Shown: positions 1 through 63,751 of the stretch, in pieces
Position numbering within the stretch: position 1 is the stretch's first letter
Layout of the letters: each line of letters opens with the position of its first letter
Source of the DNA: Halomonas socia
Lineage (GTDB): Bacteria > Pseudomonadota > Gammaproteobacteria > Pseudomonadales > Halomonadaceae
NCBI RefSeq assembly: GCF_010977575.1
Contig: NZ_CP048812.1
Coordinates: 4,464,001 to 4,528,000 of the forward strand
Length of the DNA: 64,000 nucleotides
Direction of reading: 5' to 3'
Notes under the pieces: generated by a model
Told to the model about the DNA's origin: nothing
What the model saw: the letters and a program-made list of their open reading frames with translations, nothing else
The model's database searches: none
Made by a program: the position numbers and the translations under genes

Positions 1-190
1 TCAAGGCGTCGCCCTCCATGCGCATCTCACGTGATCATAGCCTCAAGTGTGTGCCAGCTTTGGCATTCTGACAATGCGGCGCCGCAGAGCGGCACCACAC
101 AGACCGCTTTTGCCTATCCGCCGGGGCCTGTACCGCTCGGTGCTGATCCGTCGACAGAATCTCGGACATGCACCAGCGAGGGACGCCGGG
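1..190. other. No recognisable gene at left edge
   Basis: I see no supported coding region here. Short open frames exist on both strands but none has a ribosome-binding site or a recognisable product. The stretch lies beyond the 3' end of folA and leads into the palindromic repeat at 191-290. Confidence 0.4.
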
Positions 191-290
191 GGCAGGCCGA
201 AGAGGAGGTGTCGATGCCAGGGATGGCATCGGTAGCGCCCAGGGACGGTTTACAGCGCCTCCTCGTAGGCCTGCCGACGGGATAGTCCCG
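191..290 (-). repeat. Palindromic intergenic repeat, copy A
   Basis: First of three related copies. The outer stem pairs 191-198 (GGCAGGCC) with 268-275 (GGCCTGCC). A second stem pairs 202-208 (GAGGAGG) with 258-264 (CCTCCTC). An inner hairpin pairs 212-219 (CGATGCCA) with 224-231 (TGGCATCG). A further small hairpin (CGGGA/TCCCG) lies at about 278-290. It begins 34 bp after the folA stop, so it would be in the folA 3' untranslated RNA. Stem sequences differ from copies B and C but pairing is kept. Confidence 0.8.
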
Positions 291-308
291 AGCGGCACTG
301 CCAATGAC

Positions 309-860
309 TCAATCGGGAGCTGCCCCACCCTTGCGACGCCGATACTCGACGAATGCATAGGCCGGCTGGCCCTCGTGCGGTGTGCCGGGCACCCGCTGGT
401 ACTGCTGCCACTCGCCCAGGTCAAGCTCCGGGAAGCGCGCATCGCCCTCCACCTCGAGGTCGACCTCGGTGAGGTAGAGGCGCGCGGCGTAGGGCATGGC
501 CTGAGCGTAGATCTGCCCGCCGCCCATCACCATGATCTCCTCCACCCCGTCGATGATCGCCTGCTGGTCGGCGAGGTCCAGGGCGTTTTCGATATCGTGG
601 CAGACCCGCACGCCCGGGTGCTCGAAGGCAGTATCGCGCGTCACGACGATATTCAGCCGCCCCGGCAGCGGCTTGCCGATAGAGGCAAACGTCTTGCGCC
701 CCATTACCAACGGCTTGCCCTGGGTCATGGCCTTGAAGAACTTGAGGTCCTCGGGCAGATACCAGGGTAGCTGATTGTCGACGCCGATCACTCGGTTGCG
801 CGCCATGGCCGCGATCATCGCCACCGGCACCATGGTGTCAAACGGGTATCCCCAGCTCAT
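309..860 (-). CDS. folA: Dihydrofolate reductase
   Basis: Reduces dihydrofolate to tetrahydrofolate with NADPH and so recycles the folate oxidised by thymidylate synthase. The 183-residue protein shows the family landmarks: an N-terminal strand ending NRVIG, the substrate-site region [13 protein letters not shown] with the conserved acidic residue, the [15 protein letters not shown] cofactor segment and the VMGGGQIY motif. The ATG at 860 overlaps the thyA stop by 4 bp (ATGA), which suggests translational coupling. A second ATG at 833 ([10 protein letters not shown]) matches the usual family N-terminus better, so the first nine residues may not be translated. The palindromic repeat copy A follows the stop. 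Confidence 0.95.
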
Positions 861-37566: not shown

Positions 37567-38784
<1,218 letters not shown>

Positions 38785-53091: not shown

Positions 53092-53126
53092 CGAGCCCCC
53101 GCCTCCAGGCGGGGGCTCGCTGTTTC
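53092..53126 (+). terminator. Terminator after the 35-residue protein gene
   Basis: Perfect 12-bp stem CGAGCCCCCGCC (53092-53103) and GGCGGGGGCTCG (53108-53119), loop TCCA, followed by CTGTTTCC. It is a strong rho-independent terminator on the plus strand. Confidence 0.85.
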
Positions 53127-53163
53127 CAACCTGGGCGGTTACCACTTGGCGAGGCGTGCCGTA

Positions 53164-53248
53164 GGCAGACCGGAGAGAAGGTTTCGATGCCATGGATGGC
53201 ATCGGTAGTGCCCAGGGATGGTTTACAGCGCCTTCTCGAAGGTCTGCC
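53164..53248 (-). repeat. Palindromic intergenic repeat, copy B
   Basis: Outer stem 53164-53171 (GGCAGACC) with 53241-53248 (GGTCTGCC), second stem 53175-53181 (GAGAAGG) with 53231-53237 (CCTTCTC), inner hairpin 53185-53192 (CGATGCCA) with 53197-53204 (TGGCATCG). Both outer stems differ from copy A in sequence but keep full pairing. It lies 21 bp after the ilvD stop, so in the ilvD 3' region. The small second hairpin seen in copies A and C is not evident. Confidence 0.8.
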
Positions 53249-53268
53249 CACGGGCCGCTACTCTCCCC

Positions 53269-55113
53269 TCAATCCAGTTTGGAGAGGTCGCGTACCGCGC
53301 CCTTGTCCGCCGAGGTGGCCAGCAACGCATACGCCTTGAGCGCCGCCGAGACCTTGCGGTCGCGCTGGATGCGCGGCTTCCAGGCGTCCTTGCCGCGGGC
53401 TTCCTCGGCCTCGCGGCGGGCCGCCAGCTCGGCATCGCCGAGCTTGACGTTGATCGCCCGCTTGGGGATGTCGATATGGATGATATCGCCGCTCTCGATC
53501 AGGCCGATGGCGCCCCCTGCGGCGGCTTCCGGCGAGACGTGGCCGATCGACAGGCCCGAACTGCCGCCGGAGAAGCGGCCGTCGGTCATCAGCGCACACA
53601 CCTTGCCGAGCCCCTTGGACTTGAGGTACGAGGTCGGGTAGAGCATCTCCTGCATGCCGGGGCCGCCGCGCGGGCCCTCGTAGCGTACCACCACCACCTC
53701 GCCGGGCTTCACCAGCCCGCCCAGCACATGCTCCACCGCCTGGTCCTGGGACTCGACCACGTGGGCCGGGCCCTCGAACACGAGAATGGAGTCGTCGACG
53801 CCGGCAGTCTTCACCACGCAGCCGTCCACGGCGATATTGCCGAACAGCACCGCCAGGCCGCCTTCGTGGGAGAAGGCGTGCTCGAGATCGCGGATACAGC
53901 CGCTGACGCGGTCGCCGTCGAGGCTCGGCCAGCGCGCGGCCTGGGAGAAAGCGGTCTGGGTTGGAATGCCGCCGGGGCCGGCCTTGAAGAACTCCACCAC
54001 CTCGGGGCTGGGGTTACGCATGATGTCCCACTCGTCCAGCGCCGCCTTGAGGGTATCGCCATACACGGTAGGCACGCGGGTATCCAGCACCCCGGCGCGG
54101 TCCAGTTCGCCGAGGATCGCCATGATCCCGCCGGCGCGGTGGCAGTCCTCGATATGGTACTGCTGGGTGTTGGGCGCCAGCTTGCATAGCTGCGGCACCT
54201 CCCGCGACAGGCGGTCGATATCGGCCATGGTGAAGTCGACCTCGGCCTCCTGGGCGGCGGCCAGCAGGTGCAGGATGGTGTTGGTGGAGCCGCCCATGGC
54301 GATGTCCAGGGTCATGGCGTTCTTGAATGCCGCCTTGGAGCCGATGGCGCGCGGCAGCAGGTGCGCCTCGTCGCCCTCGTAGACGCGCTTGGCCAGCTCG
54401 ACGATGCGGCTGCCGGCCTCCTCGAACAGCCGGCGGCGGTCGGCATGGGTGGCCAGCACCGTGCCGTTGCCCGGCAGCGCCAGGCCCAGCGCTTCCATCA
54501 GGCAGTTCATGGAGTTGGCGGTGAACATGCCGGAGCAACTGCCGCAGGTGGGGCAGGCGCTGCGCTCGATTTCGTCGATCTCCTCGTCGCTGTACTTGTC
54601 GTCGGCGGCGTAGATCATGGCGTCGATCAGATCGATGCCGTGCTCGAGCAGCTTGGTCTTGCCGGCCTCCATGGGGCCGCCGGAGACGAAGATCACCGGG
54701 ATATTAAGGCGCATCGCGGCGTTGAGCATCCCCGGAGTGATCTTGTCGCAGTTGGAGATGCACACCAGCGCATCGGCGCAGTGGGCATTGACCATGTACT
54801 CGACGCTGTCGGCAATCAGGTCGCGACTCGGCAGCGAATAGAGCATGCCGTCGTGGCCCATGGCAATGCCGTCGTCCACGGCGATGGTGTTGAACTCCTT
54901 GGCCACCCCGCCGGCCTTCTCGATCTCGCGAGCCACCAGCTGGCCCATGTCCTTGAGGTGCACGTGGCCGGGCACGAACTGGGTAAAGGAGTTGGCCACG
55001 GCGATGATCGGCTTGTGGAAGTCGTCATCCTTCATGCCGGTGGCACGCCACAGGGCGCGGGCGCCGGCCATGTTGCGGCCGGCGGTGGTGGTACGCGAAC
55101 GATACTCGGGCAT
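53269..55113 (-). CDS. ilvD: Dihydroxy-acid dehydratase
   Basis: Iron-sulfur enzyme of valine and isoleucine synthesis: removes water from dihydroxy acids to give 2-oxoacids. The 614-residue protein has the cluster cysteines in [15 protein letters not shown] and [20 protein letters not shown], the [10 protein letters not shown] segment, [12 protein letters not shown] and C-terminal [20 protein letters not shown]. Length matches E. coli IlvD. It is transcribed alone here and followed by the palindromic repeat copy B. Confidence 0.96.
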
Positions 55114-62295: not shown

Positions 62296-63447
62296 CTAGG
62301 GGTCCAGCCGTTCGACCACTTCCAGATCGAAGCCCGACAGCGCCGAGAACTTCCACGGCGAGCTGAGCAGGCGCATCTTGCCGACCCCGAGGTGGCGCAA
62401 GATCTGCGAGCCGGTGCCGATGGTCAGGTAGTTGCCAGCGCCGTCGGACTCGCTGCCACGCGGCTGACGGCGGCGCTCGAGGAACACCTCGAGGTAGTCG
62501 AGGAAGTCCTGGCGCGGGCGACCGTCGTCGAGCAGCACGAAGACGCCGGCCTCGGCGTTGGCCACCTCGGCGATGGCGCCGCTGGCGCTCCAGCTGGCGT
62601 TGTCGCCCTTCTGCAGGCACAGCAGGTCGCGCATCACGTCGGCCAGGTGGACGCGCACCGTGGTCGGCACCTCCGGCGACGGCCGGCCCTTGACCAGCGC
62701 CAGGTGATGGGCGCCCTGGATGCCGTCGCGGAACACATGCAGGTCGAGCGCGCCGAAACTGGTCTGCACCTGGGTCGACTCGACATGGTCGATGGTCTGC
62801 TCGTTGTGAATGCGGTAGTGGATCAGGTCGGCGATGGTGCCCATCTTAAGGCCGTGCTCGGCGGCGAAGCGCTCGAGCTCCGGGCGCCGCGCCATGCTGC
62901 CGTCGTCGTTCATGACTTCGCAGATCACGCCGCTGGGGTCGAGCCCCGCCATGGCCGCCAGGTCGCAGGCCGCCTCGGTGTGGCCTGCACGCCGCAGCAC
63001 GCCGCCGGGCTCGGCCATCAACGGGAAGATGTGCCCAGGCTGGACAATATCCTCAGCCTTGGCATCGCGTGCCACCGCAGCTTGCACGGTGCGCGCGCGG
63101 TCGGCGGCGGAAATACCGGTGGAGACGCCTTCGGCGGCCTCGATGGAGAGCGTGAACTTGGTGCCGAACCCGGAGCCGTTGTCGCTGACCATCAGCGGCA
63201 GCTTGAGACGCTGGCAGCGCTCGCGGGTCATCGGCAGGCAGATCAGGCCGCGCGCGTGGCGAGCCATGAAATTGATGTGCTCGGCCTCGACCTTCTCGGC
63301 GGCCATGATCACATCGCCCTCGTTCTCGCGATCCTCATCATCCATCAGGATCACCATCTTGCCCTGACGAATGTCCTCGATCAGCTCGGCGATCGAGGCC
63401 ATGCCAGTCGCCTGGTCGGCGCTGGAATCCTGTGAAGCCTTAGCCAT
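62296..63447 (-). CDS. ribBA: Dihydroxybutanone phosphate synthase with degenerate RibA domain (RibBX type)
   Basis: The 383-residue protein has a complete RibB half ([16 protein letters not shown], residues 36-51, and later [13 protein letters not shown] and [20 protein letters not shown]-like region) that makes dihydroxybutanone phosphate. The C-terminal half is shaped like GTP cyclohydrolase II, but the zinc-binding cysteines and HSECLTGD/CDCG motifs are missing ([20 protein letters not shown]). It is thus a RibBX-type protein that should not have GTP cyclohydrolase activity; another ribA gene must exist. GGAG lies 7 nt before the ATG. Confidence 0.92.
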
Positions 63448-63541
63448 GCAAACTCCAAATCGCTATGCCCATGGGCGCCGCACGGCGGCGGCGGGTGAAC
63501 GCTCGGACAGCAACGCCCATTCTGAATCGGCGCTCAGGGTA

Positions 63542-63608
63542 CCTTGGCGCGGCGTCGGGCGCCAGTAGAGAGCACCCTTGGCGCGGCGTCGGGCGCTAAT
63601 AGAGAGCA
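63542..63608. repeat. Tandem 33-bp repeat upstream of ribBA
   Basis: Two direct copies of a 33-bp unit (63542-63574 and 63576-63608) beginning CCTTGGCGCGGCGTCGGGCG and ending TAGAGAGCA, with two differences and a 34-bp period. They lie 95-160 bp before the ribBA start and directly beside palindromic repeat copy C. They are GC-rich and not part of a gene. Confidence 0.75.
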
Positions 63609-63639
63609 GCGCCCAAGGCCTCTGAGCGAGGACGCCGGG

Positions 63640-63738
63640 GGCAGGCCGAAGAGAGGGTTTGCGCCATGGATGGCGCAAGGTAGCGCCCAGGGAGGGGTTC
63701 ACAGCGCCCTCTCGTAGGCCTGCCGACGGATCAGTTCC
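63640..63738 (-). repeat. Palindromic intergenic repeat, copy C
   Basis: Outer stem 63640-63647 (GGCAGGCC) with 63717-63724 (GGCCTGCC), second stem 63651-63657 (GAGAGGG) with 63707-63713 (CCCTCTC), inner hairpin 63659-63666 (TTGCGCCA) with 63671-63678 (TGGCGCAA), and a small hairpin CGGA/TCCG at about 63726-63738. It lies 28 bp after the ribD stop. The middle part (GGTAGCGCCCAGGGA) is shared by the copies. Confidence 0.8.
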
Positions 63739-63751
63739 GAGCGGTGTTGTG

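Follow-up and report, generated by a model that had tools for sequence, protein, structure and literature searches.

A wide, probably mobile repeat family of Gammaproteobacteria with two ANGGAN-loop hairpins, traced from three copies in Halomonas socia

The stretch of Halomonas socia DNA analysed here (64,000 nucleotides; the window) carries three copies of a palindromic sequence next to folA, ilvD and ribD, which raises the question of what kind of element this is and which of its strands acts as a folded molecule. The original prediction placed the copies at 191-290, 53164-53248 and 63640-63738 and considered a REP-like mobile element, an element of mRNA 3' ends or a protein-binding RNA. The copies and their quoted stems are present at these coordinates. 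The repeat is longer than described and runs to about 178-291, 53151-53264 and 63627-63740, with two further stems outside the former boundaries, one of them CCGG/CCGG and the other, in copy A, GAGGGAC/GTCCC. The features are as follows (R3 is the class-wide covariance model introduced below):

178..291, plus strand: copy A, full short form (match 4464178-4464291, E 1.5e-25), between a left-hand gene on the minus strand and folA (309-860, minus strand)
218..225, plus strand: hairpin 1 loop of copy A, C-AGGGAT-G (CANGGANG)
240..247, plus strand: hairpin 2 loop of copy A, C-AGGGAC-G (CANGGANG)
134..157, minus strand: end remnant of a second, inverted copy adjoining copy A (by eye)
53151..53264, plus strand: copy B, short form (R3 E 1.2e-6), between a terminator-like hairpin (about 53092-53119) and ilvD (53269-55113, minus strand)
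53191..53198, plus strand: hairpin 1 loop of copy B, C-ATGGAT-G
53213..53220, plus strand: hairpin 2 loop of copy B, C-AGGGAT-G
63627..63740, plus strand: copy C, short form (R3 E 9.5e-11), between a left-hand minus-strand gene (ORF 62296-63447) and ribD (minus strand, running off the window)
63665..63672, plus strand: hairpin 1 loop of copy C, C-ATGGAT-G
63688..63695, plus strand: hairpin 2 loop of copy C, C-AGGGAG-G

Copy A has an R3 score of E 3e-8 on the plus strand, and 19 nt separate its two GGA. Measured from where the match of the first model ends, folA, ilvD and ribD are 27, 14 and 21 nt away. Since the three genes lie on the minus strand, what their mRNAs contain is the reverse complement of the originally written copies, and the GGA strand of all three window copies is antisense to folA, ilvD and ribD. 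Directly left of copy C, at about 63541-63608, a unit of ~34 bp (CCTTGGCGCGGCGTCGGGCGC...TAGAGAGCA) stands in two tandem copies (by eye). Elsewhere in the window, at 37845-37961, the Rfam ALIL pseudoknot is matched with 103.7 bits (gathering 50); we take it to be the type of frameshift signal known from IS3-family transposases.

Layered from the outside, the short form consists of a 5 bp stem, CCGG/CCGG, an 8 bp outer stem and the second stem, followed by two junction hairpins. The unit has long arms that enclose a conserved core of ~55 nt, a three-way junction carrying two adjacent hairpins with ANGGAN loops. Fourteen copies in this genome are of a long form, in which the hairpin 1 loop opens into an extra ~90 nt, and 13 of these 14 have a third ANGGAN hairpin; still longer flanks are common to some copies and missing in others (by eye). 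The plus strands of copies A, B and C each beat all 200 dinucleotide shuffles (z -5.5, -6.0 and -3.7); the minus strands fold well too, with z of -4.4, -7.5 and -3.5, copy C being equalled by 2 of 200 shuffles. For one long copy none of 200 shuffles folded as well on either strand, with z of -4.0 for the GGA strand and -5.7 for its complement, hence folding energy alone cannot pick the strand. The joint change of stem partners claimed for the three copies was confirmed by covariation in an alignment of 37 short copies of this genome, outer stem included. In this alignment 94.3% of cells are paired, compared with 81.8% when partners are shuffled, 25 of 36 pairs show changes on both sides, and the covariation score is 0.399 against 0.167, with 0 of 500 shuffles as high. 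Sliding the partners by 1-3 columns leaves only 32-49% paired. Covariation both here and across the class (below) supports the view that the structure is selected, or otherwise kept.

The repeat is multicopy in its own genome and reaches far beyond it. BLAST of copy A against the own 4.75 Mb genome gave 42 matches. A covariance model with a search for further copies, the check that accompanied the original prediction, was carried out with nine copies (R1). At E<=1 it returned 65 matches; 8 of them repeat a place on the opposite strand, and by hand count 57 places are left (places 55-57 weak). A second model, built from the 37 short copies (R2), matches all five genomes of the genus, the own one included (55, 75, 99, 77 and 76 matches), and 40 of 274 genomes of the class. 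The R2 loci that were read have a general form, a conserved core near GACCGTCGGCNGCAGGGATGCNGCCGTCGAGCSTACAKGGANGTATTYACRGCGTGTC between long, mutually pairing, copy-specific arms. Scanning named genomes for a core pattern yielded at least 119 stretches, whose record titles point to Gammaproteobacteria, or merely to Proteobacteria in two, by the class to which we take each titled organism to belong. From 70 of the scan sequences, with no record named Halomonas, Yersinia or Pectobacterium, we built the third model, R3, which finds all three window copies on the plus strand (E 1e-6 to 1e-10), YPAL in Yersinia similis (E 4e-15) and two Pectobacterium copies; on the long copy in L036 it finds a fragment only (E 0.01). 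R3 matches occur in 53 of the 274 class genomes, own included, and in 47 of 222 genera, copy counts being lower bounds since up to 17 candidates were scored per genome; one same-family genome and two same-order genomes of this sample gave no R3 match. In a phylum sample, the core pattern (up to 2 mismatches) was found in 23 of 398 genomes, all among the 137 of the same class by hand count, and in 0 of the 261 outside it, and a backwards control pattern gave 0 in every row.

Pairing is conserved class-wide as well. Across the 70 sequences 89.1% of cells are paired versus 64.0% in shuffles, and the covariation score of 0.603 (0.155 shuffled) was reached by 0 of 500; pairs with changes on both sides are not in excess, as 403 of 500 shuffles reach their number of 19. 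A plasmid collection gave one match to copy A, in Halomonas sp. PA16-9, and one class query gave no match in plasmids and phages. Some loci are of interest in themselves. In G463 (L278, 1488-2700) six copies of the same orientation follow each other at a regular spacing of ~227 bp, forming a tandem array. The near-identical copies of G071 (L280-L295) lie within nested palindromes of ~370 bp, some near contig ends, and are a recent burst with long fixed arms. One core match (L218) comes from a MAG record titled Klebsiella pneumoniae, the other titles being mostly aquatic or soil bacteria; this record is possibly mislabelled or a mixed assembly.

The mismatches of the arms, with G-U and A-C scored alike, bear on which strand folds. 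The class set comprised 101 loci of the 122 matches listed, the rest being too near an end or having arms under 12. Read on the GGA strand, its arms hold 131 G-U against 35 A-C (60 loci versus 13, p 2e-8) and 59 G.A against 12 T.C. After removal of 3 near-duplicates (98 loci) the figures are 130 against 35 (59 loci versus 13, p 4e-8) and 58 against 10. The excess of G-U is found in copies with both neighbours running against the element (31 versus 11 A-C, 25 loci) and in every other neighbour-direction class too, so neighbouring transcription does not explain the bias. A second set of 76 copies, found mainly by other searches and reduced to 72 by removing 4 that overlap the first, showed 48 G-U against 14 A-C (28 loci versus 6, p 2e-4) and 25 G.A against 4 T.C; the own-genome copies alone, with two columns left out, gave 27 against 17, which is not decisive. 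One pair of hairpin 2 is C-G in 76 and G.A in 46 of all 122 scan matches listed, under a pattern that also allowed C.A and G.G. In the second set this pair is G.A in 39, C-G in 22, G-C in 4, U-A in 3, A-U in 1, C.A in 2 and G.G in 1, and other match lists hold a few more C.A and G.G. We conclude that the GGA strand very probably folds. Selection to fold is shown by this strand only, and a mutation bias tied to the element would be an alternative source of the asymmetry; the folded strand is compatible with RNA or with single-stranded DNA, neither being singled out. Downstream of hairpin 2, TTYAC is replaced by CTYGC in G463, G365, G661, G570, G278 and G281; letters 1 and 4 change jointly (U..A to C..G), like a pair across two nucleotides.

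The arms belong to individual copies. Among 112 class loci of the matches listed, a locus's own arms score a median of 23; with a right arm taken from another locus the corresponding score is 3.5 and the highest 13.9. Arm length has a median of 28, the shortest being 2. In Marinobacter salexigens (G278) the outer arms are unrelated between copies yet well paired in 6 of 6, and in M. iranensis (G279) unrelated but pairing in 4 of 6, the other two being without well-paired arms (by eye); in both genomes the core and the inner arm are near-constant between copies. Three copies in a Stenotrophomonas genome (G280) have arms in common, and in Microbulbifer (G281) the variable part is the middle. Such arms could get their new sequence on insertion or through template switching.

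Comparison of orthologous sites showed that copies come and go. At the ilvD site there is a short copy here, a long copy in G003 and none in G004, and G001 and G002 have other neighbours (by eye). The folA site has a plus-strand copy here and in G004 and an inverted copy in G001-G003 (by eye); in those three genomes the inverted copy is complete where the own genome has the remnant at 134..157, and end remnants of the other copy are found in G000 and G002. This site may once have held two inverted copies, with lineages losing one or the other. Gain or loss is therefore seen at both orthologous sites examined, ilvD and folA; no clean one-step insertion was found at the sites compared, and the flanks at ilvD differ too. 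Direct repeats of at least 6 nt outside the arms, as a target-site duplication would leave, were found in 8% of the 101 class loci versus 5% of the control, which is not above chance. A search for the Y1 transposase domain (PF01797), which detects it in 5 of 14 control genomes, found none in the own genome. The ORFs in three gaps between close copies look metabolic, resembling hydroxypyruvate isomerase, EpmA and histidine-degradation enzymes, and no mover was found among them (by eye). The proposal of a REP-like mobile element stands as far as a mobile repeat is the best class, given copy number and turnover at orthologous sites; a REP moved by a RAYT transposase is contradicted in this genome by the absence of PF01797. 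That the repeat is a mobile one we regard as quite likely.

To describe the placement of copies relative to genes, neighbours were called by our own script and not by a published caller. For the own genome 54 copies were used; the weak copies 55-57 were dropped, and the left neighbour of copy 13 was set by hand because of a shadow ORF. The copies are in the same sense as their neighbours in 21 cases, antisense in 18, in divergent gaps in 10 and in convergent gaps in 5, the background of gene pairs being 88 tandem, 30 divergent and 14 convergent. Divergent gaps are thus used about as often as background, and there is no excess of convergent gaps among the 54. Across the class, 72 of the 101 loci, among the matches listed, lie outside genes with both neighbours called within 600 bp: 22 convergent, 21 same sense, 20 antisense and 9 divergent, the pairs in the background of the same loci being 155 tandem, 39 convergent and 67 divergent. 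The ratio of convergent to divergent gaps (22 versus 9 against 39 versus 67) corresponds to an OR of 4.2 (p 0.001), an excess that promoter avoidance would also give. Subgroups differ, and placement is not simply neutral. In the 12 diverged copies (27-37, 41) the left gene runs into the element in 12 of 12 (11 sense, 1 convergent). Of the 26 best-scoring short copies 11 are antisense, 9 divergent, 5 sense and 1 convergent, so that the left gene points away in 20 and runs into the element in 6 of 26, against 12 of 12 in the diverged copies (p 7e-6). The long copies are mixed, the left gene pointing towards the element in 8 of 14. The common orientation close to a stop codon, on which the 3'-end suggestion was built, holds for the three window copies but not genome-wide.

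The most constant part of the repeat is its loops. All 37 own copies have the six fixed letters of hairpin 1, C-A-N-G-G-A-N-G, and hairpin 2 has its C in 37, its A in 36 and its GGA in 37 of 37, with the closing G in 30 of 30 ungapped copies. Class-wide, the search pattern placed no demand on hairpin 1; among the matches listed, 85 of 116 loci have it as C-ANGGAN-G and 8 as C-AGGAN-G. Several of the other 23 carry the motif in a badly placed hairpin, and some are without it. For hairpin 2 the pattern required only the GGA and the downstream block, and CANGGANG is found in 74 of the 76 second-set copies (70 of 72 without overlap); in G598 a U-A replaces the closing C-G. The gap between the two GGA, in 108 loci among the matches listed, is 19 in 78, 20 in 21, 18 in 5 and other in 4.

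This arrangement resembles the binding sites of CsrA/RsmA. In the excerpts of the review PMC7652899 the SELEX consensus for CsrA/RsmE is RUACARGGAUGU, with ACA and GGA always kept, and the ligands mostly have six-nucleotide loops closed by AC-GU; the NMR structure has an ANGGAN loop, and a pair of sites can be bridged at a distance of 10-63 nt, with the best bridging above 18. Set against these excerpts, the repeat has A(N)GGA loops, C-G closure and two sites within 10-63 nt of each other, and the SELEX consensus lies within GUACAGGGAUGUA, the form of hairpin 2 with the G.A pair. Against the likeness, the hairpin 1 stems of ~8 pairs are longer than those of most SELEX ligands. CsrA/RsmA is the best candidate for a protein gripping the repeat because the fixed and the free positions of the motif, as given in these excerpts, are reproduced in both hairpins. 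A CsrA match is present in 36 of the 40 R2-positive genomes and absent in G012, G073 and G104, which are under 90% complete, and in G200, which is 98% complete and not among the listed CsrA matches. Co-occurrence showed no association, as 199 of 234 element-negative genomes also have CsrA (235 of 274 overall). From the likeness of the letters, CsrA-family proteins would bind the repeat RNA with a chance somewhat better than even, and such binding may, a little less probably than even, be the reason why the loops are conserved.

The analysis shows the family, its covariation, the strand bias, the loop motif and the turnover at sites. A reading has to reconcile copies in both orientations to genes, with differing subgroups, one folded strand whatever the neighbours, arms that vary yet pair, and loops that stay fixed. 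The explanation that we place foremost, giving it about an even chance as a whole, is a non-autonomous mobile repeat with one folding strand that is gripped at its loops, plausibly by CsrA. A mobile unit with a strand handled at its loops explains all of the findings but the arms and the sense subgroup. The non-coding repeat represents the wide gammaproteobacterial family behind YPAL/RU-2 of Yersinia. It would spread while its GGA strand is single, through an RNA or single-stranded DNA intermediate; this strand would fold, and a dimeric protein, for which the host RNA regulator CsrA/RsmA is a candidate, could grip the two CANGGANG loops 18-20 nt apart. The sense subgroup may be kept by the host. 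An unlikely alternative, though the least so, gives the host the leading part, the GGA strand being a two-site CsrA/RsmA dock that regulates a transcript or titrates the protein and is kept for this purpose. It would account for fixed letters that make the CsrA motif in two hairpins (three in the long form) at tight spacing, for the RNA-like covariation and for the diverged subgroup, in which all 12 copies follow a gene in sense and 11 have both neighbours pointing the element's way. Pooled orientation shows no preference, however (21 versus 20 in the class set, 21 versus 18 in the own genome), and the GGA strand is antisense to its neighbour in many copies, all three in the window included; moreover, no conserved flank beyond the arms could serve as a promoter (by eye), and presence is patchy.

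An element for stability or processing of mRNA 3' ends, as the original prediction suggested and as proposed for YPAL, we consider rather improbable. The class-wide excess of convergent over divergent gaps, the subgroup with an upstream gene running into it in 12 of 12, and some copies that have a stop codon on one side and a terminator-like hairpin on the other (by eye) are in its favour. As a general rule in this genome it is not supported, and it was rejected as a general reading: both orientations occur and the pooled orientation is neutral, the own genome has no convergent excess, the selected fold is antisense to folA, ilvD and ribD, and the strand asymmetry is independent of gene direction. 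A host 3'-end element explains the sense subgroup and not the strand bias of antisense copies. Slightly more improbable still is template-switch repair at replication, which would keep palindromes perfect so that compensating changes need no selection. It suits arms that are variable yet pairing even within one genome around a conserved core, but the mismatches are strongly strand-biased, and we know of no reason why such repair should favour G-U over A-C on one strand; the hairpin stems and the pair S-R covary too. It may add to the turnover of the arms. A REP element moved by a RAYT (Y1) transposase would share the dispersed intergenic palindromes of Gammaproteobacteria, but with no PF01797 in the genome and a different size and architecture (a three-way junction of ~110 nt, not the hairpin of 20-40 bp with a GTAG/CGTC tag described in the excerpts of PMC3733652) it is very improbable. 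Going beyond the mobile repeat with a gripped strand, we suggest, tentatively, that a class-wide mobile repeat may use CsrA/RsmA as a docking protein that protects or tames its RNA intermediate, and so may give the genomes of some lineages 50-100 potential CsrA decoys or switches each, the arms being rewritten copy by copy.

If CsrA does bind, a large pool of its sites, so far unrecorded, would lie in mobile repeats, which bears on the growth and turnover of Csr regulons. The strand bias and the loop motif make the link between the repeat and RNA control testable, and arms that are copy-specific yet pairing raise a clean question of how palindromes get rewritten. In the literature searched, which covered few subscription papers, the class-wide family, the strand bias, the CsrA-like loops and the long form are unreported; PMC2759123 was the only bacterial paper to match the core strings, and nothing was found on palindromic repeats of Marinobacter or on CsrA CLIP at repeats, nor anything relevant on CsrA and repeats among the papers listed.

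The closest known system is YPAL/RU-2, in the excerpts of PMC2229807 and PMC2759123 a mobile sequence of ~168 bp with internal inverted repeats in Yersinia and Erwinia, with target duplications of 3-26 bp near dyad symmetry; its 2006 description is taken here as given in the excerpts of these papers and PMC2267715. Like the family, YPAL/RU-2/Ysr224 has an ANGGAN-loop hairpin, a second hairpin TACATGGATGTA followed by TTTACGGCG and a shared outer stem, and YPAL/RU-2 is intergenic and multicopy. Core sequence and structure are shared, R3 finding both. The arms and terminal sequence differ from those of the window copies (by eye), and the printed YPAL, as excerpted, has 168 nt, whereas the window form has ~114 nt plus a variable outer flank and a form ~90 nt longer exists. 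Rfam RF02770 (Ysr224) gives 24 bits for copies A and B, its gathering score being 70, and copy C goes unreported up to E 1; it passes gathering in Yersinia similis and two Pectobacterium copies (126, 73 and 72 bits), and of ten other loci it gives 23-32 bits in five and is unreported in five. The Rfam scan of the window and these ten loci found no family at the element other than the sub-threshold Ysr224, and that of four long-form loci no match. The wider family suggests that the Ysr224 'sRNA' is a model of a dispersed repeat, and its strand is not the one that shows the fold bias but the opposite one. The statement that the element is not a named family was right in so far as Ysr224 stays below gathering, and is superseded in that R3 unites the window copies with YPAL/RU-2/Ysr224. 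Judged by sequence and modelled structure, the small mobile sequence known from Yersinia as YPAL is one corner of a class-wide family, which has members in 47 of 222 genera sampled.

Other systems share single traits with the repeat. The sponge RNAs CsrB/RsmZ and CsrA leader sites have, like the repeat, A(N)GGA loops with C-G closure, two or more per RNA, and the spacing of the repeat's loops is within the bridging range of CsrA given in the excerpted source; unlike them the repeat is dispersed and has a three-way-junction core, no promoter or terminator belonging to it was noticed, and the likeness is known here from sequence. The GTAG/CGTC-tagged REPs (in the excerpts of PMC3733652, single hairpins of 20-40 bp with unpaired tags) are also dispersed intergenic palindromes, whereas the repeat has 110-210 nt, a three-way junction and no Y1 transposase in its genome. 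ERIC and other bacterial MITEs are, like the repeat, non-coding, palindromic, intergenic and multicopy; ERIC has 127 bp, the repeat has no detected target-site duplication, and it is set apart from ERIC by description.
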